Shown one piece after another: positions 3,755 to 37,889 of a DNA stretch of 55,741 bases. The translations under genes and the position numbers were made by a program. The notes under the pieces were generated by a model, which saw only the letters and a list, made by a program, of their open reading frames with translations, did not search any database and was not told the DNA's origin. Numbering within the stretch: the stretch's first letter is position 1; each line of letters begins with the position of its first letter. The stretch comes from a virus: positions 1 to 55,741 of the IMG/VR virus record IMGVR_UViG_3300038436_000236. One strand, written 5' to 3'.

Positions 3755-3807
3755 ATTTATAAAAAGCGGGTAATACGCGCAAACAATAATTGTAACTGGT
3801 GATAATA

Positions 3808-3993
3808 ATGGCAGAATCTAAATTGCTTACTTATGTCGAAATGTCCAATCGCATTAACGTAAAAAAGAATACGCTGGCGCAGTGGGTTATGCAAAAGCGC
3901 ATCCCCCATATAAAAATTGGGCGGCTCGTTCGGTTTGATGAAAATGAAGTAATCAAGTGGTTTGACTCTCATAAAGTCAAACCTGCCGCGTAA
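3808..3993 (+). CDS. Excisionase-like helix-turn-helix protein
   Basis: 61 residues, basic and compact. The whole protein is a winged-helix/HTH_17-type domain (LLTYVEMSNRINVKKNTLAQ, then RIPHIKIGRLVRFDENEV), the pattern of excisionases and MerR-like DNA-binding modules. The ATG is chosen over a GTG three codons upstream because GGTGAT lies at the right distance. It is the first rightward gene, divergent from the integrase operon, which fits a role in excision or early regulation. Direct proof of excisionase function is not visible. Confidence 0.65.
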   Translation: MAESKLLTYVEMSNRINVKKNTLAQWVMQKRIPHIKIGRLVRFDENEVIKWFDSHKVKPAA

Positions 3994-4035: not shown

Positions 4036-5073
4036 ATGACAACCGCGACAAGTATGGTAAACGGAACGAAGGATAGGCATGAAGCTATACCGTATGAGGA
4101 TTTTCTTGATATGGTCGCTGAAAAAAACGTAGCGCGTGCCCCGCAGGACCTTTTCGGGACTCTCCCCAGGTTCCGGTATGTCCCGAGGCACAAAAAGAGC
4201 GACAGCGAAGTTGTAGGCCCGCAGTTGCTCCCCTTCCGCGATGAGGCGGGCGAAATTTCTATGCCCGACCTTGATCTTATGCCTGTCGCTCATAAGCAGA
4301 TGTGTGACCGCTTGAAGGTCAACGAATCGCTTCTTGAGCGGCTCCCGCCGAAACTGTCGCATGATGTCGTCAACGTCCTGGTTCAGAATAATGGATACGA
4401 CAAGGATTTGATGATCAGGACGGTGAACGGAAATAAGGTCCGGGCGCTGATGTCGCGGAGCTATACCCCTTTTGATGATATTGACCTTTTCATGGCACTG
4501 CGGCCTTTCATGGGCGGGGCGCTGGTCCGCTGGAGCGATACGACAGAGACTTTCTCACATCTGCGTATTTCGTGGCCGAATATGCGCACTGAAGTGAAAC
4601 CCGGCGATATCGTCGAATCAGGGCTGCATATCTCTAATTCTGAGGTTGGTTTCAGGTCTGTGACTATTCAGGCTGTCGTTATCCGGCTGGTATGTACGAA
4701 TGGGATGCTGTCCACAAAGGTCGGCGGCGGCTTCCGGCATGTCGGCGACCCTGCGGGCCTCAAGTCAAAAGTGATTTCAACGGTTGAAGAGGCGAAATTT
4801 TCTACTGAGACATTGACGGCTAAATTCAGGGCGTCACTGACTGCGCGGGTTGATCAGCCGATTGACGTGATGGAGTCATTTGCAAAGGACGGCGGGCTGT
4901 CGCAGGACCAATTCAAGCGGACGCTGGAGCGGTTTACGATGGATAGTGAAACTGGCGGGTCAGTGTTTGATATGGTCAATGCTTTTACGCGGGAAGCGCA
5001 GGAAGAGCCCACGGTAGAAAACAGGTATCAATTTGAAGGGGTCGGGGCGCGAATGTTGAACGATCTGGTATAG
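4036..5073 (+). CDS. DUF932 domain phage/plasmid-like protein
   Basis: 345 residues, start preceded by GGAGAT. The middle of the protein (RALMSRSYTPFDD, then LRISWPNM and NSEVGFRSVTIQAVVIRLVC) matches what I know of the DUF932 family, found in phages and plasmids beside replication and recombination genes. The biochemical role is unknown. It opens the rightward early block together with the DUF2303 gene, an arrangement common in temperate phages. Confidence 0.7.
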   Translation: MTTATSMVNGTKDRHEAIPYEDFLDMVAEKNVARAPQDLFGTLPRFRYVPRHKKSDSEVVGPQLLPFRDEAGEISMPDLDLMPVAHKQMCDRLKVNESLLERLPPKLSHDVVNVLVQNNGYDKDLMIRTVNGNKVRALMSRSYTPFDDIDLFMALRPFMGGALVRWSDTTETFSHLRISWPNMRTEVKPGDIVESGLHISNSEVGFRSVTIQAVVIRLVCTNGMLSTKVGGGFRHVGDPAGLKSKVISTVEEAKFSTETLTAKFRASLTARVDQPIDVMESFAKDGGLSQDQFKRTLERFTMDSETGGSVFDMVNAFTREAQEEPTVENRYQFEGVGARMLNDLV

Positions 5074-19506: not shown

Positions 19507-21108
19507 ATGAAAAAAGAAGCTGAGAAGTGTGCGATGTTCGGTGATACTTTCTACCCGTCATCGCCTGCGGTCATTGGGAAAATGATCAAAAAAGTTCATA
19601 AATCTGCAAATAAAATCCTTGACCCTTCTGCGGGGATGGGCGCTTTGATCGAGGGGTATATGGAGCGGTATTCTAGGTATAATATGCCTGACATATCCGC
19701 AATCGAAATTGATAAGGATTTGCGTTCGGTGCTCAGGGGGAAAGGAATCAAGGTTATTGATACTGATTTTCTTGCTTTCTCCGGGCCTGATAAGTTTGAC
19801 CTTATCATCGCAAATCCGCCGTTCAGGGACGGCGACAAGCACTTGCTCAAGGCAATTGAAATAATGTACCGCGGGCAGATTGTTTTTTTGCTCAATGCCG
19901 AGACGATCAGGAACCCATGCACGAATACTCGCAAAGAGCTGGTGCGAAAGCTTGAAGAGCTTGGCGCGGAAGTTGAGTATATTCATGATGCGTTTGCTGA
20001 TGCCGAAAGACCTGCATGCGTTGATGTCGCGCTGATCGACATCCGCATCAACAGGAATGTCGAAGAGGATTTGTTCGCAGGGGCTGACGATGTGGCTGCA
20101 GGGTGTACGGAAACAATCCGGGGAGCCAATGAACTCGCTACCGGGAAGGGCGTTTATGAGCTTGTTGCGGAATATAACCAGGTGGTCAGTATCTGCATGG
20201 AAACAATCGTTTCCTATTTCCGCAATTACCGAAAAGTGTGCAGTTACGTGGCGATCAATCGTGAAGCTGAAAAGTGCAATTACATGAAGGGCGACCTTAC
20301 CGACGAAATGCAGGGAATCGTTAATAAAATGCTTACTTCTGTCCGTAGGGATTTTTGGCGGAAAACGCTTGACCTGCGGGAGGTCGGCAGCAGAATGACT
20401 AAGAAAAAAATTGCAGAGTTTGAGCACGCCATAAATGAACGTTGCAATATGGATTTCACGGAAAATAATATTCGGGCGTTTGTCCTAAATGTTATCAGCG
20501 GATATGAAAAAACGATAACTGACGCGGTTATTGATATTTTTGATATGTTCACGGCGCGGCACGCATACGGGGAGATGGGCGTTTATGAGAAAAATATTCA
20601 CTACTTCAACGGCTGGAAAACAAACAAAGTTTTCAAGGTCTGTCGGCGTGTGGTAATCCCCGTTTATGGTAGTTTTGGCGGGGCGTTTAGATCGTGGGGG
20701 GCGTGGAAGCTAGATTACAGGGCGGCTGAGAAATTGCGCGACATCGATGTGGTCATGAATTATTTCGACGGGATGAGCAGTTATGTCTCTATCAACAAGG
20801 CCCTGGAGGATGCTTTTGCCAGGGGGGAATCGAGCAAGATAAGAAGTACATACTTCACGATAACTGCCCATAAAAAGGGCACGATTCATCTGACCTTCAA
20901 TGATGACGACATCCTGCGGCGGTTCAATGTCGCGGCGTGCTCCGGCAAGGGCTGGTTGCCTGGTGATTACGGGCGGACTGAATATGCGAAACTGTTGCCG
21001 GAAGAGAAGACGGTTATTGATGAGTTCGAGGGGCGGGAAAGCTATGACGAAAATCGCGTGAAACCTGTTTTCCCGCAGTCGGTCAAGGTGCTGAAGATCG
21101 CGGCGTGA
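19507..21108 (+). CDS. DNA adenine methyltransferase-type protein with DUF4942 domain
   Basis: 533 residues. The N-terminal ~190 residues are a class I methyltransferase: SAM-binding DPSAGMGAL at 39-47, EID acidic motif at ~67, and catalytic NPPF at 103-106, the N6-adenine type. Residues ~240-530 match the DUF4942 domain often fused to or beside such enzymes in phages (EFEHAINERCNMDFTENNIR, FNGWKTNKVFKVCRRVVIP). Probably modifies phage DNA against restriction. AAGGAAAC precedes the ATG. Confidence 0.8.
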   Translation: MKKEAEKCAMFGDTFYPSSPAVIGKMIKKVHKSANKILDPSAGMGALIEGYMERYSRYNMPDISAIEIDKDLRSVLRGKGIKVIDTDFLAFSGPDKFDLIIANPPFRDGDKHLLKAIEIMYRGQIVFLLNAETIRNPCTNTRKELVRKLEELGAEVEYIHDAFADAERPACVDVALIDIRINRNVEEDLFAGADDVAAGCTETIRGANELATGKGVYELVAEYNQVVSICMETIVSYFRNYRKVCSYVAINREAEKCNYMKGDLTDEMQGIVNKMLTSVRRDFWRKTLDLREVGSRMTKKKIAEFEHAINERCNMDFTENNIRAFVLNVISGYEKTITDAVIDIFDMFTARHAYGEMGVYEKNIHYFNGWKTNKVFKVCRRVVIPVYGSFGGAFRSWGAWKLDYRAAEKLRDIDVVMNYFDGMSSYVSINKALEDAFARGESSKIRSTYFTITAHKKGTIHLTFNDDDILRRFNVAACSGKGWLPGDYGRTEYAKLLPEEKTVIDEFEGRESYDENRVKPVFPQSVKVLKIAA

Positions 21109-31582: not shown

Positions 31583-32214
31583 TCCATATGAATTTGAGGA
31601 AAGAAGGTGCTTGGCATATCAGTTTCCCGGCTGGGGGGTTGACGTTGCCTGCTTCGTTTTTCAAGTACGCGGCTGAAGTCCTGGTAAAGGATATTCAGGG
31701 CCGGATGAATCGCGGCGTTGGCGCTGATAATCAGTTGATGGTCGATAATGCGGCGAACACGCGGAGCGCGGCGGGGTATGCTGGGCAACTCGGGAAGCTT
31801 AAAAAGGCGGGGACGTATGGAGGGAAGAGCTTCGGCGAGCGAACGGGGTGGAAGCGTAAGCGGCCTTCGGTGGCTTCCGGCTGGCTGCGCGATCATATCA
31901 AAGTTGCCTCGGTCGGCGTAAATGGCGCTGTTGTCCATGTCGAGGATGCGCCTTACCCTGATAGCGAGTATGGTGCAACAACCCTGATGGCGGCAAACTT
32001 TCTGCAGGTCGGGACCAAGGCGCATGTGATCCGGCCACGCGGGCAATGGCTGCTCAGGTTCCCCACGTCCAGGGGGGTTGCTTTTGCAAAACAGGTGAAT
32101 CATCCGGGTACTGTTCCGCGTGCCTTTTTCGGGATTTCGCCTGCCTATGAGAAGCAGATGATGAAGCGGGTCGAGCAGATCATCAGCAAGATTATCGAGG
32201 ACGGTTTTAAATGA
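31579..32214 (+). CDS. Phage virion morphogenesis-type protein
   Basis: 211 residues. Basic, with HVEDAPYPDSEYG in the middle and NHPGTVPRAFFGISPAYEKQ near the end, the pattern of virion morphogenesis/tail-completion proteins (Mu gpG type). Coupled to the MuF polyprotein by a 4-base overlap. Confidence 0.6.
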   Translation: MIHMNLRKEGAWHISFPAGGLTLPASFFKYAAEVLVKDIQGRMNRGVGADNQLMVDNAANTRSAAGYAGQLGKLKKAGTYGGKSFGERTGWKRKRPSVASGWLRDHIKVASVGVNGAVVHVEDAPYPDSEYGATTLMAANFLQVGTKAHVIRPRGQWLLRFPTSRGVAFAKQVNHPGTVPRAFFGISPAYEKQMMKRVEQIISKIIEDGFK

Positions 32215-35200
32215 GCAATTCGAATGATGGGCTGTCAAAAGATGACCTGTATAAAAAATATAATATCGTCAAGATGGAGCTGGAGATTACCGGCGCGGAG
32301 CTGAAAAACAAAATCGGGAAAACGAAAATTTCCGTTTCCGATTATGTTTCCAGGCTGAAGGCGCAGGGGATGAGTGCGAAAGACATTCAGGCCCTGCTTA
32401 TCTCCGATTTGAAGACTGGTGGCCCGCTGTTCTCTGAGCTGCGGGCCACGTTCGTTTCCCCGTTCTCTTCTTCTGCTTCGAGGATTACCGCGACGGTTGC
32501 CAATTTTGCGGCTGCGGGCGGTGATGCGGCTCAGAAAATGGTTTGGATCGCGTCGTTCAAGAACACATGCACTTCCTGCGTTCCACGGCATGGGGTTGCA
32601 AAGTCCTATGCGGAATGGGTCAAGGTTGGGCTCCCTGGGAATTTCGGCTCGTATTGCAACGGCTATTGTCAGTGCCGGCTGTTCCCGATTGAATACCCTG
32701 GCGTTGCTGACATGAAACTGCCGAATAATCGGAAGCAGTGGAAGGCATTGATGACGGGCGGGGATAAGGGGAAATTGCCGGGTGCCCTGGCCGAGGCTGA
32801 AAGGTTGCTGGCGAAGCAGCAGAAGGTTGTCGCTGTGCGAATAGCGGCGGCGGAAAAGCATGCTGCCGACCTTGAAGAAAAGGCGAAGAAGCTGAAAGAC
32901 GATATCGAGATATCGCAGCAGGCCCTGGCGGCACAAAAAACGCTCCAGGACGCGGCGAATGATCACCTGGCTACGCTCACCTTCATTGCTGACGGAAAAA
33001 CGCCTACGCCTTCCGTGCTGATCCCTGGTAACGGCAATATACTCGGCGGCGGACGGGCTACTGTTCAGAGCTGGAAGAGGTTCAGAAAAACGGTCAAGGA
33101 CGAACCTGATTTTGTCCTGCCTGCCCATCTGGAGGGGAAAAAGGAACTTGCGTCCGGCGTGATCATCAAAGAGGCGGACGGTAGAATATGGCTCGTTGAG
33201 CCTCGGGACAATTTCGGCGGTTATAAAATGACCTATCCGAAAGGTCGGCTTGAGTCTGGCCTTACCCCTGCTCAGAACGCGGTGAAAGAGGCGTATGAAG
33301 AAACGGGGCTCAAGGTCGAGCTGACTGGATTTGTCGGAGATTACGAAAAGACGGAAACTTTCACGCGGTATTATGTCGGGCGGCGGGTCGGCGGAGATCC
33401 GGCTTTCGCCCATTGGGAGAGTAACAGGGTCCGGCTGCTCACACCTGATGAAGCGCGGAAATATCTGAATGTGCCTGTTGACCGGGAAATCCTTGACGAT
33501 TTCCTTGCTGGTGGACAGCGCAAGGAGCTTGCGGATAGGCTGCGGCTGATCCCTGGGAGCCAGAAGGGGACGAACGCGGGCGGCATGTATGTCGATTCGG
33601 TGTCTGGCGAGAAGTACTATGCAAAGTTCTACGGGGACGCGAAACAGGCGCGGTCTGAGTTTGCCGCAAACGAGATAGGCAAGGCGCTTGGCGTACAGAC
33701 CCCTGAAAGTCAGTTGCTTGAAATGGTAGGGCCTGGCGGGGAGGCGCGGCTTGCTATCGTCACGAAGTGGGAAGATGGGCTTGAACGGCTGAACTTGCGG
33801 AATAATACTTTGCTGCTGGAGAACGCGGAAGAGCTTGCAAAGCATCATCTGAATGCTGCGCTGGTGGCAAATTGGGATGTTGTCGGGTTCGAGTTTGACA
33901 ACCTGCTGCGGATGCCAAACGGCAGGATTGTTGTTGTTGATTCTGGCGGCGCATTCAGGTTCCGGGCTCAGGGCGCGGGGAAGGCGTTCGGGCGCGATCC
34001 TGCGGAGTTCGACAGCCTGCTTGATTCTGCGGTCAATCGGCAATCAGGTTCCGTTTTTTCTCCTGTCGTTGAGGGCTACACGTCAAAGCAGCCGGAAAAG
34101 CTCATCGTCTGGCTGCGTGGACTTGATGATGCTGCTATAAGGGACGTATTCGACCGGTCCGGGGTCCGCGACTGGGAGTCGATGGCGGAAATTACTGCTG
34201 CCCGGCGCGACGCTCTGATCAAAAGACTTGAGCGGTATATCGAGCGGCCCAAAGAGACGGATGCACGGGTTATCGTCAGCATCAAGGAGGCTGTTGAAAA
34301 AATCAAGGCGTCGCGGCTCAACGGGTATGCTATCCCCCTTGATGAGGATGATATCGAGGATGTGTATGTTCTCTTTTGGGAGGAGATCGGAGCGGACGGA
34401 AATAAGAAGCTGCGGGCTCGGATGAAATTGACGCCGCGCGGCGGTGAAAAGGTCGATGCTATCTTGCTTGATGAGCTTGGCGCACCGGCTGTGACTTCGG
34501 CGAGGAGGTTTTCGAAAACCGGGCCTCAGCCTTTGAGCGATGATTTCTACTATGACAAGGTCATGGCCGGGGTAAAGAATATTGCTTACCATGTAAAAGA
34601 CGGCGTCTATAACCTTGAGAAAATTGCACTCATGAAGGCGCAGGAGGTGCCGCTTAAAAAATTGATGGCAAGCGGCTCAGTGCAGCAGAAGCAAATGGCG
34701 ATGAAATATTTGTACGCGATAGATGACGCGGAAAAGGCCATGGCTGCGAAAGGGATGCCGGGGAAGCTAGAGCAGTTCCTGTATGAGGCCCCCAAGGGCA
34801 ACGTTGAATCGGTTGCGGAGAAAGTGCGCGGGGCGGCTCGGCCAAAGGTTGAACCGTTTCGGGCTGAGGGTAAAGCTGTTGATAATGGCAAGGCTGCGGT
34901 CCATGGGGACAACACCCCTTCCTACCTGTCTGATCAGCGGCTATACTCTTTCGATTTGTCCGGGGACGTGACGGCCCGCTATGTCCCGTGGGGCTACGGA
35001 GCGAACAAGTATGCCTTGCGCGGGCAGATGGATTTGTTCATTGATGGGGGCGCGACTGAAAAAAATATTCAGGACGCAATTGATGCAATCGCTGATCTTG
35101 GCATCAAGAATAAGATGGCTGATCCTGACTATATCGAGCTGGTCTATCTGCATAAGCACGCTTATCTACGCGGTGACGATCTGAAGGCGGAATACCTGGT

Positions 35201-35906
35201 GATCTGGAATAATACATCCCTGCAGACGAAAGAGAAGGTCGAGAAGATCAAGGACTATTTCGAGGCTGACGGGTTAAAAGTTCGGGGGAATCCTGCTTAT
35301 ATGCCGATGGGGGAGTATAATCATTTTGGCCAGGGGCGTATTGTGTGGCGTCGGTTCGATATCTCTCGGGAAAAAATCAAGGAAGAAATGCCGGATTTCC
35401 GTATTTATCATTCTCTGACTGGTGGCGCGTCTGTGGATAAATTGATTGATAATGTCTTGAATTCTGGTGGCGAGTTTTCCGCGACGAATGAGCGGCTCAG
35501 GCGCGGGATTAACGCTTTAGGTACAAGCTCACAAGAGGCGGATATGAGCACGGGCGGTGCTGGGTATTTTTTCACGCGTATAACAAAAAGCGCAGCCAGA
35601 AAAGGGGCGATTGAATGGGATGTGTCAGAACTTTCCCGAATTGACTCTGTCAGTTACGAAGGAGACTTTTACGGTGAGGTTAAAGACAATTCAGTAATCC
35701 GCCGAAGAAAAATAAATATATCTGGGTGGAAAGCGAATGCTGCATTCGGTTCTAACGAGACAATTTTCAAACATGGTTTGGATATCTGGCACGTTACCGC
35801 GATTAATACAAGCAGCCTTGTTGAGCGGTTGAAGGTTCTTGATGTGTTCAGGAAGCATAAGATTTCCGAAATAAACGGGAAAAAAATTGAGGATATAGTC
35901 AGATGA
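32211..35906 (+). CDS. Giant MuF/SPP1 gp7-like head polyprotein with NUDIX and HipA-like kinase regions
   Basis: 1231 residues. ~80-160: MuF/gp7 head-morphogenesis domain with the Cys motif CTSCVPRHG...CNGYCQC. ~195-260: coiled coil. ~313-430: NUDIX hydrolase-like region with box KGRLESG...KEAYEETGL (Lys replaces the usual Arg). ~447-620: HipA/PI-kinase-like fold with Lys471 in YYAKF, Glu483, NWDVVGFEFDNLL and VVVDSGG as DFG-like motif. ~700-1060: unassigned. ~1063-1231: C-terminal domain starting RIYHSLTGG with GGAGYFFTRI and SNETIFKHG, possibly an effector domain. MuF proteins are known carriers of polymorphic toxins; a small overlapping gene follows, as an immunity gene would. Toxin activity is inference. 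Confidence 0.75.
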   Translation: MSNSNDGLSKDDLYKKYNIVKMELEITGAELKNKIGKTKISVSDYVSRLKAQGMSAKDIQALLISDLKTGGPLFSELRATFVSPFSSSASRITATVANFAAAGGDAAQKMVWIASFKNTCTSCVPRHGVAKSYAEWVKVGLPGNFGSYCNGYCQCRLFPIEYPGVADMKLPNNRKQWKALMTGGDKGKLPGALAEAERLLAKQQKVVAVRIAAAEKHAADLEEKAKKLKDDIEISQQALAAQKTLQDAANDHLATLTFIADGKTPTPSVLIPGNGNILGGGRATVQSWKRFRKTVKDEPDFVLPAHLEGKKELASGVIIKEADGRIWLVEPRDNFGGYKMTYPKGRLESGLTPAQNAVKEAYEETGLKVELTGFVGDYEKTETFTRYYVGRRVGGDPAFAHWESNRVRLLTPDEARKYLNVPVDREILDDFLAGGQRKELADRLRLIPGSQKGTNAGGMYVDSVSGEKYYAKFYGDAKQARSEFAANEIGKALGVQTPESQLLEMVGPGGEARLAIVTKWEDGLERLNLRNNTLLLENAEELAKHHLNAALVANWDVVGFEFDNLLRMPNGRIVVVDSGGAFRFRAQGAGKAFGRDPAEFDSLLDSAVNRQSGSVFSPVVEGYTSKQPEKLIVWLRGLDDAAIRDVFDRSGVRDWESMAEITAARRDALIKRLERYIERPKETDARVIVSIKEAVEKIKASRLNGYAIPLDEDDIEDVYVLFWEEIGADGNKKLRARMKLTPRGGEKVDAILLDELGAPAVTSARRFSKTGPQPLSDDFYYDKVMAGVKNIAYHVKDGVYNLEKIALMKAQEVPLKKLMASGSVQQKQMAMKYLYAIDDAEKAMAAKGMPGKLEQFLYEAPKGNVESVAEKVRGAARPKVEPFRAEGKAVDNGKAAVHGDNTPSYLSDQRLYSFDLSGDVTARYVPWGYGANKYALRGQMDLFIDGGATEKNIQDAIDAIADLGIKNKMADPDYIELVYLHKHAYLRGDDLKAEYLVIWNNTSLQTKEKVEKIKDYFEADGLKVRGNPAYMPMGEYNHFGQGRIVWRRFDISREKIKEEMPDFRIYHSLTGGASVDKLIDNVLNSGGEFSATNERLRRGINALGTSSQEADMSTGGAGYFFTRITKSAARKGAIEWDVSELSRIDSVSYEGDFYGEVKDNSVIRRRKINISGWKANAAFGSNETIFKHGLDIWHVTAINTSSLVERLKVLDVFRKHKISEINGKKIEDIVR

Positions 35907-36254: not shown

Positions 36255-36479
36255 TCACTCTGCCTTTTCGCCGCAGATCGCCCAGGCTATACATGCTGCC
36301 CATGCAACAAATGTCCAGCCTAATGCGATGCTCACTATCGACAGGCTTTTTATTTTTTTAACCTTCCTGGCGCGGGCTATGAATACCGGGATGAGGTATA
36401 TTAAAAGGGCGAATGCTGCTGGTATTCCCATGTGCCATAGGTTGTTTATTGCGCTCAGGAACTTCTCTAATAAAAACAT
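36255..36479 (-). CDS. imm: Superinfection immunity protein (Imm-like membrane protein)
   Basis: 74 residues with two membrane helices (~18-35 and ~48-69). ALLIYLIPVFIARARKVKKI followed by IVSIALGWTFVAWAACIAWA is the Imm/superinfection-immunity pattern, in which the protein blocks DNA entry of related phages. Encoded against the structural genes, with AAGGAAG before its ATG, and so can be expressed in the lysogen on its own. A moron by position. Confidence 0.85.
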   Translation of the reverse strand: MFLLEKFLSAINNLWHMGIPAAFALLIYLIPVFIARARKVKKIKSLSIVSIALGWTFVAWAACIAWAICGEKAE

Positions 36480-36574: not shown

Positions 36575-36793
36575 ATGAGCAGAAGTATGGCTATACAAAA
36601 TAACGCTTCAACGGACGAAGCGGGAACAGATATTGCTACTCAGGGGCTTCATGCTGCGGCTGGGATAATTTCAATGACTGAGCGGTTCCTTGACGGTTTC
36701 TCCTCAACGCAGCTTGCTCGTGACGACATCGAGATTGTACAGCAGAGCTGTGTCGGAACTCGGATGTTGATTGATGAGGTTCTCAACAGGTAA
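36575..36793 (+). CDS. Small hypothetical protein, paralogue of the gene at 37155
   Basis: 72 residues. The C-terminal third (DDIEIVQQSCVGTRMLIDEV) matches the end of the protein at 37155 (EKEIIQQACGAISSLIDVAL). Transcribed away from imm and followed by a terminator, so it is a single-gene unit. Function unknown. Confidence 0.6.
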   Translation: MSRSMAIQNNASTDEAGTDIATQGLHAAAGIISMTERFLDGFSSTQLARDDIEIVQQSCVGTRMLIDEVLNR

Positions 36794-36856: not shown

Positions 36857-36894
36857 GTTTTTCCCCTTGATTTTGTGCAGGTATCTTTGTAATT

Positions 36895-36989
36895 TGTGGC
36901 TGTCACGGCAAAATCCGTGATCTGGTTTGCAAGCCAGGATTCGAGGTGGGCATGCCGCCGCTTATAACAAGCATCAGGCGGCTTTTTTT
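36895..36989 (+). ncRNA. C4-like antisense RNA
   Basis: A gene-free stretch with hairpin TCACGG/CCGTGA, palindrome CTGGTTTGCAAGCCAG, and a long stem (GTGGGCAT/ATGCCCAC enclosing GCCGCC/GGCGGC) that ends in seven T. The segment TTGCAAGCCAGGATTCGAG is antisense, 17 of 19 positions, to CTCGAATCCGGTCTTGCAA ~115 bases downstream. This layout matches the C4 RNA of P1/P7/N15-type phages, which controls an antirepressor-linked gene. Exact 5' end is estimated; the family call is from memory of the C4 sequence and structure. Confidence 0.65.
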
Positions 36990-37058
36990 ATGCCCACGGC
37001 TAGGCTCTCGCATTTCTTTTTGGGCGGGCCTGGCGGGGAGCTTTCGGGCTCGCCGGTT

Positions 37059-37077
37059 CTCGAATCCGGTCTTGCAA
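37059..37077 (+). promoter_or_regulatory. Target site of the C4-like RNA
   Basis: CTCGAATCCGGTCTTGCAA, complementary to the C4-like RNA. Its first seven bases can also pair in cis with ATTCGAG at 37138-37144, which is the ribosome-binding region (GAGGTG) of the gene at 37155. RNA binding and cis pairing exclude each other, so this could be a translation switch. Confidence 0.55.
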
Positions 37078-37154
37078 CCTGCCAGGTTCCGTCCTTTTCG
37101 TTTGCAAGCGTTGGGGACTGAATTTCCAGCATTCTCTATTCGAGGTGTAGTGTC

Positions 37155-37379
37155 ATGCAATCCAAAAACGTCATAGACTTGAATAATCGTAGTAACCTTG
37201 GGGCGCGCCCTGCAACAAGCGGTCTTCCTTGTGAGAATATGTTACGGCAGGCGTCTGGAGTTGCAAAGTTGGTCGATATGTATCTTGACAACGGGGTCAA
37301 TACTGTTGCCGAAAAAGAGATCATTCAGCAGGCGTGCGGTGCAATTTCAAGCCTGATCGATGTGGCGTTGCATAATTAA
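37155..37379 (+). CDS. Small protein controlled by the C4-like RNA (paralogue of 36575)
   Basis: 74 residues; GAGGTG 8 bases before the ATG. N-terminal part is polar, C-terminal EKEIIQQACGAISSLIDVAL is helical and shared with the 36575 protein. In P1-type immunity regions the gene after C4 is icd/ant; this protein does not resemble Icd, Ant or KilA-N proteins. Followed by a terminator, so only this gene is in the unit. Confidence 0.6.
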   Translation: MQSKNVIDLNNRSNLGARPATSGLPCENMLRQASGVAKLVDMYLDNGVNTVAEKEIIQQACGAISSLIDVALHN

Positions 37380-37440
37380 TTTATAAAAAATCCTGCTTAT
37401 TTTCCCAAAAAATATACTCCTAAAAATAAAAAAGTCATTG

Positions 37441-37474
37441 AGCCCCTGTCTTTTCGGAGATAGGGGCTTTTTTG
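37441..37474 (+). terminator. Rho-independent terminator
   Basis: Stem AGCCCCTGTC/GATAGGGGCT (one G-T pair) with an 8-base loop, then six T. Confidence 0.9.
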
Positions 37475-37606
37475 TTGTTTTTTGTTAAACATCTGTGAAC
37501 ATTCGGAAACATTCGAATGTCATTCGCCGCATCATATGTGCCGTGTAACTGGTTATTAAATCATCTTTTTTAGGAGATATAGCTTTTCGTCAGATCTTGC
37601 GCTTTA

Positions 37607-37889
37607 TGCGACCGCATATGCGACCGCATTGCGACCGGAATGCGGATTTTATGCGTTGAAAATGCGCTTGAATTTTGGCCAAAAAACACCCGAAAAAGTG
37701 AAGGGTAATATTGTTTGCTAGGCGGATAATTTCCGATTTTGAAGGGTAATATTGATTGATAGGTTTGACGAAATTCAAGGAAAAATATTCGTAATGTGTT
37801 GATATTAAAAGATAAAACCATCATGCGGTCGCAATGCGGTCGCAATGCGGTCGCATTACGGGCGGATATGCGGAGTTAAAGCGACCGGA
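37607..37889. repeat. Iteron-rich non-coding island
   Basis: Three copies of TGCGACCGCA (third ends GGA) at 37607, 37619 and 37630, and three of the reverse complement TGCGGTCGCA at 37824, 37835 and 37846, plus a half-degenerate AGCGACCGGA at 37880. Spacing is 11-12 bases, one helical turn, so one protein face would contact each copy. Between the clusters lies an AT-rich segment with two TGAAGGGTAATATTG repeats 41 bases apart. The whole ~600-base gap between 37475 and 38080 has no convincing gene. Could be an origin, a parS-like site, a packaging site or an enhancer. Confidence 0.8.

Follow-up and report, generated by a model that had tools for sequence, protein, structure and literature searches.

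The 55,741-base viral sequence analysed here, referred to in its entirety as the window, carries a genuine C4-type antisense-RNA switch of a prophage, of a known kind and with variant traits. A complete predicted C4 module is placed ahead of the gene of a 74-residue protein rather than the usual cell-division-inhibitor or antirepressor gene. Comparison of the sequence with RNA models identified the C4 RNA, an a1 b1/isrK-like element upstream, the a2 b2 sites downstream and covariation with other loci (Table 1). We consider it likely that C4 blocks the 74-residue gene at a2 b2 and that a1 b1 acts as a decoy that frees it. The C4 model (RF01695) matched the window with 48 bits, above its gathering score of 45, and did so over its full length (model positions 1-87 of 87). 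A sequence-only reading of the same DNA had called the locus C4-type and had proposed this covariance-model search as a check, which did not refute the assignment. Its location of the C4 RNA at 36895-36989 was wrong: the model matches 37017-37097, some 120 nt further downstream, whereas the interval given is the c4-a1b1/isrK target side, and antisense and target had been swapped. Since the interval matches target-side families, the ~95-nt RNA predicted to end near 36989 would be IsrK-like and not C4.

Table 1. Features of the C4 locus and its neighbourhood (window coordinates).
Feature	Positions	Strand	Evidence or remark
72-residue ORF lacking C4 target sites of its own	36575..36793	+	33%, E 0.004, to the controlled protein
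Weak promoter-like site, TTGATT-17-TAATTT	36867..36895	+	Position and P1 annotation (P1c4 promoter)
c4-a1b1 element (RF03163), sub-threshold	36889..36941	+	40.0 bits
isrK-like RNA (RF01394), sub-threshold, ending in terminator-like hairpin	36902..36988	+	46.3 bits
a1, upstream C4 target TTGCAAG	36927..36933	+	
b1, upstream C4 target ATTCGAGG	36939..36946	+	
Outer stem, GTGGGCAT (36946-36953) / ATGCCCAC (36990-36997)	36946..36997	+	Encloses the terminator hairpin and its T-run
Terminator-like hairpin, GCCGCC..GGCGGC then T7	36954..36989	+	Sequence; 3' part within isrK match
C4 antisense RNA (RF01695)	37017..37097	+	Rfam covariance model; closing stem 37022-37094 by fold
b' antisense segment TCTCGAAT, hairpin loop of C4	37058..37065	+	
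a' antisense segment CTTGCAA, junction of C4	37071..37077	+	
T-run directly behind C4 closing stem	37095..37098	+	
a2, downstream C4 target TTGCAAG	37102..37108	+	
b2, downstream C4 target ATTCGAGG	37138..37145	+	Overlaps GAGG Shine-Dalgarno-like sequence
Controlled gene, 74-residue protein, predicted helical hairpin	37155..37379	+	
Terminator-like hairpin after the 74-residue gene	37440..37469	+	

The complementarity noticed in the sequence-only reading is real: the segment 36927-36945 (TTGCAAGCCAGGATTCGAG) is antisense to 37059-37077 at 17/19 positions, a value not reached in any of 3000 dinucleotide-shuffled versions of the 210 nt downstream. The underlying motif, TTGCAAG-N(3-33)-ATTCGAG, occurs in 3 copies in the 55,741 bases against 0.04 expected from shuffles: two on the + strand (36927-36945 and 37102-37144, the targets) and one in antisense (37059-37077), the roles of target and antisense being assigned by the Rfam covariance models. 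The antisense segment can also pair with ATTCGAGG at 37138-37145, as had been proposed under the name of an alternative pairing, and with TTGCAAG at 37102-37108; the arrangement is the standard a1b1/C4/a2b2 one known from the P1 annotation, not an extra twist of the locus. All four pairings (a' and b' with a1 b1 and with a2 b2) match over 7-8 nt without exception, and b2, ending 10 nt ahead of the 37155 ATG, falls on the ribosome-binding site of the first gene, as in C4-type loci.

Experimental precedents exist for this layout (PMC5320573, PMC4825925). Our reference for phage P1 was the GenBank annotation, which lists a1, b1, c4, a2, b2 and icd. The window shares with the C4 of P1 and P7 (RF01695; immI operon c4-icd-ant) both the C4 structure and the order a1 b1 / C4 / a2 b2, and the distances are similar. 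The second (-10) hexamer of the promoter-like site ends 32 nt before a1, exactly as in P1; from the start of a1 to that of b1 there are 12 nt in the window and 14 in P1, from the end of b1 to the C4 stem 76 and 67, from the end of C4 to a2 8 and 4, from the start of a2 to that of b2 36 and 29, and from the end of b2 to the ATG 10 and 11. The first ORF has 74 codons in the window and 73 in P1. The paired sequences themselves differ: in P1 TTGACAG (a) is the partner of the junction CTGTCAA and GTTAGTG (b) that of the loop CACTAAC, whereas in the window CTTGCAA pairs with TTGCAAG and TCTCGAAT with ATTCGAGG. In contrast to P1 and P7, the window has a target protein of unrelated sequence with no antirepressor gene behind it, and the locus lies among structural genes.

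The upstream elements scored below the gathering cut-offs of their families, c4-a1b1 (RF03163) with 40.0 bits against 46.7 (E 2e-8 in a 1-kb search) and isrK (RF01394) with 46.3 bits against 50 (E 1.3e-8 in a 1-kb search), and we therefore class them as c4-a1b1-like and isrK-like rather than as full members. Real C4 loci (L023, L028 and L030) likewise score under the c4-a1b1 cut-off. The promoter-like site at 36867-36895 did not pass a consensus scan and is for this reason graded weak. The outer stem of 7-8 bp, which encloses the first terminator with its T-run and is no part of the isrK model, was significant in the window (p 0.006) and also in P1, L023, L026 and L029; in six other loci it was not significant.

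We then compared antisense and target sequences over 14 C4 loci: the window, P1, P4, phiKO2, KpLi5, PY54, Kpn74, four E. coli or Salmonella loci (L028, L029, L030, L039) and three loci of uncultured phages (L023, L024, L026). Loops and junctions differ from locus to locus and vary together with their targets, and own targets generally scored higher than foreign ones. Mean scores for own and foreign targets were 19.2 vs 13.3 for the loop with the upstream site and 19.3 vs 12.8 with the downstream site; for the junction, own targets reached 15.1 upstream and 14.7 downstream vs 10.8 for foreign ones. No foreign flank equalled the window's own in any of the four comparisons. The exceptions among the 14 loci were the loop of PY54 and the downstream a2 of L024, which are unmatched, and the upstream a target of P4 was not recovered within the stretch used. 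The rule is well illustrated by L026, in which ACCAAAGGAG, placed at the ribosome-binding site of a P22_AR_N antirepressor, is the pairing partner of the loop TTCCTTTGGT, and by L023, in which the loop TTTCCGTTGGT has its partner ACCAACGGAGA ahead of a 65-codon ORF that precedes a Rha-type gene. Such an a/b pairing code makes C4 targets predictable from sequence. The uncultured-phage loci (L023/L022, L024/L014 and L026/L020) resemble the window in the a' segment CTTGCAA, the T-run after C4 and the isrK-like element upstream, and differ from it in their b' loops and downstream genes, which are a 65-codon ORF with the Rha-type gene, a gene for an HTH-like protein and the P22_AR_N antirepressor gene. 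Pattern searches at the DNA level yielded no further loci: CCGGTYYTGCAACC..CGTCC gave 6 matches in viral contigs, 0 of them with a C4 model match, a generic P1-type C4 pattern gave 0 matches, and of 31 matches to an a1b1-element pattern only already known loci were C4, the others looking like chance in coding DNA.

From this arrangement the following course of events can be proposed. The transcript would begin near 36902 and would either stop at the first terminator (36989) as an IsrK-like RNA containing a1 b1, or read through across C4 (37022-37094) into the 74-codon gene at 37155. C4 would offer b' in its hairpin loop and a' in its junction as antisense segments; in the lysogen, their pairing with a2 (37102) and b2 (37138, at the ribosome-binding site) would keep the 74-residue protein from being translated. 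The a1 b1 element would pair with the same C4 segments, more strongly by prediction (duplex energies of -32.6 kcal/mol for C4:a1b1 and -21.0 kcal/mol for C4:a2b2), and may thus free the gene as a decoy, either in trans as the short RNA or in cis within the read-through transcript. Against the proposal, no energy was gained when native C4 was cofolded with the mRNA, although nested folding cannot form loop-loop contacts. Translational block and decoy action are the most likely functions by analogy with two studied systems. C4 of P1 occludes the ribosome-binding site of its target (PMC5320573). In the Salmonella prophage Gifsy-1, one leader serves both short IsrK (RF01394) and a longer read-through mRNA; acting in trans, short IsrK switches on translation of the downstream genes, and a stable RNA of ~80 nt is processed from the stretch after IsrK (PMC4825925). 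Gifsy-1 is like the window in that a leader element with a terminator is followed by complementary C4-like sequence and then by a small ORF, and unlike it in continuing into anrP, whereas the window unit ends after one gene. C4 and IsrK RNAs help to decide whether some prophages stay silent.

The site of the downstream pairing bears on whether C4 acts on translation or on transcription. In satellite phage P4 the CI RNA (seqA, CI, seqC; L031; precursor of the ash gene region) is of the C4 type and its loop pairs both upstream and downstream, as in the window, with other loop sequences and other genes; it is described as pairing with seqA and seqC and causing premature transcription termination (PMC4825925). 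The P4 locus has the same elements as the window, where a terminator-like hairpin directly follows b1 and a T-run directly follows the C4 stem, and C4 might likewise act mainly by terminating transcription in the leader rather than by covering the ribosome-binding site. We regard this as possible but not probable: b2 is located at the ribosome-binding site with P1-like spacing, which favours translational control, although both mechanisms could act together.

Another reading, which appears rather unlikely to us, is that C4 is never a free RNA here, the read-through mRNA mainly regulating itself by long-range a1b1:C4 pairing in cis and the short RNA activating translation in trans, as demonstrated for short IsrK in Gifsy-1 (PMC4825925). 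The predicted fold of the read-through leader with a1b1:C4 paired in cis was indeed 11.5 kcal/mol better than that with native C4 enforced, but folds of 300 nt give unreliable energies, native C4 has a strong local fold (-43.4 kcal/mol) that would form first, and Gifsy-1 too shows the stable ~80-nt RNA from this region (PMC4825925). It is very improbable that the locus is a decayed remnant in which C4 and its targets persist and expression is lost. The weak promoter and the a1b1 and isrK scores under cut-off would fit such a remnant, but loci with antirepressor targets have closely comparable scores, and the intactness of all four short pairings over 7-8 nt argues against decay, in the course of which random mutation would have disrupted one or more of them. 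That the antisense RNA is after all encoded at 36895-36989, where complementarity does exist, is scarcely credible, as the C4 model matches elsewhere, the interval matches target-side families and the P1 annotation has a target copy upstream of C4.

In P1 and P7, RNase P cuts at a GGW start to give a processed C4 RNA of ~77 nt. In the window the features of P1-type C4 connected with RNase P (GGT start, ..CCACC end) are altered: the stem begins with GGGCGG at 37022, and the CCACC end is absent, with the T-run in its place. A run of 4-6 T right after the C4 stem was present in 4/4 loci of the CTTGCAA type (the window and the three uncultured phages) and in 0/10 enterobacterial C4 loci, a count that is not an independent test because the four loci may share descent. 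Judging from the sequence, the T-run would make C4 a second, terminator-like hairpin, and the 3' end of C4 may represent a variant way of ending the RNA; this subgroup suggests another way of making an antisense RNA. A bolder and quite speculative proposal, which we think improbable, is that the subgroup has turned the antisense RNA into an intrinsic terminator, a second gate behind the IsrK-type terminator, with a1b1:C4 pairing governing both read-through and translation, and that the gated product is here a new kind of small helical effector instead of Icd or an antirepressor. Compared with classic C4, the locus stands apart by its unrecognised target protein and possibly by a variant RNA end.

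The controlled protein had been described as unrelated to the known C4 targets, and this proved right: it does not recognisably resemble Icd or an antirepressor, and Pfam, PHROG, NCBIfam, PADLOC and PDB gave no match of note. It lacks antirepressor domains (P22_AR_N, Rha, ORF6N, BRO), and it has no visible resemblance to P1 Icd that would place it in the Icd/Ash family, with the caveat that Pfam gives no significant match for P1 Icd either. Its only clear relative, 65% over residues 27-72, is encoded by a second uncultured phage (L002) at the corresponding place; no relative was found in GenBank phages. No C4 was found at the L002 locus, so that the gene can do without C4 control. A complete module ahead of an unrelated small gene whose nearest relative is without it suggests movement of the RNA cassette from one target to another. 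The neighbouring 72-residue ORF is probably a distant paralogue, a weak relative of the controlled protein. Two further candidates were rejected: a match in Ignavibacteria genome contigs lies inside a longer unrelated ORF, and homology with the 65-codon ORF of L023 was unsupported (hhalign probability 0.2%). AlphaFold predicted a helical hairpin with low confidence (mean pLDDT 67), for which BFVD contained no match below E 0.001; a row for an Acb2/Tad1 hairpin (E 2.3) was not taken as evidence. By analogy with the other C4 targets, our best guess is that this small protein works in induction or on the host; it is a candidate phage effector.

The controlled gene is located between a head-region gene for a large NUDIX-domain protein and the scaffold gene, 33 kb from an HTH gene beside the integrase, and the hairpin at 37440-37469 makes it apparently the sole gene of its unit. 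The NUDIX-domain protein (32211-35906, +) has 1231 residues with a NUDIX hydrolase domain (PF00293, E 9.5e-13), and L002 has a homologue at the equivalent place. The C4 cassette is adjoined by another gene for a 74-residue protein (36255-36479, -), which contains a superinfection-immunity domain (PF14373, E 1.2e-11). At the integrase, a sensor-kinase-like frame (1-1428) and a tRNA-Arg (1953-2029) point only to a prophage junction. In L002, the stretch 3780-3880 before the gene homologous to the controlled one is rich in TAACCG/AACGGTT words and looks operator-like by eye, with no repeat of at least 9 nt reported in it. Between the controlled and scaffold genes of the window (37599-37873) there are iteron-like arrays with an 11-nt period (TGCGACCGCAT), with inverted copies ~190-230 nt further on, and L002 has an equivalent layout at 4258-4540 with the core GCGCCCG vs GCGACCG in the window. 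Finally, a 533-residue ORF (19507-21108, +) gave a weak partial match to models of the 23S rRNA methyltransferase Erm (30 bits, cut-off 212) and is probably a DNA or RNA methyltransferase of another kind.
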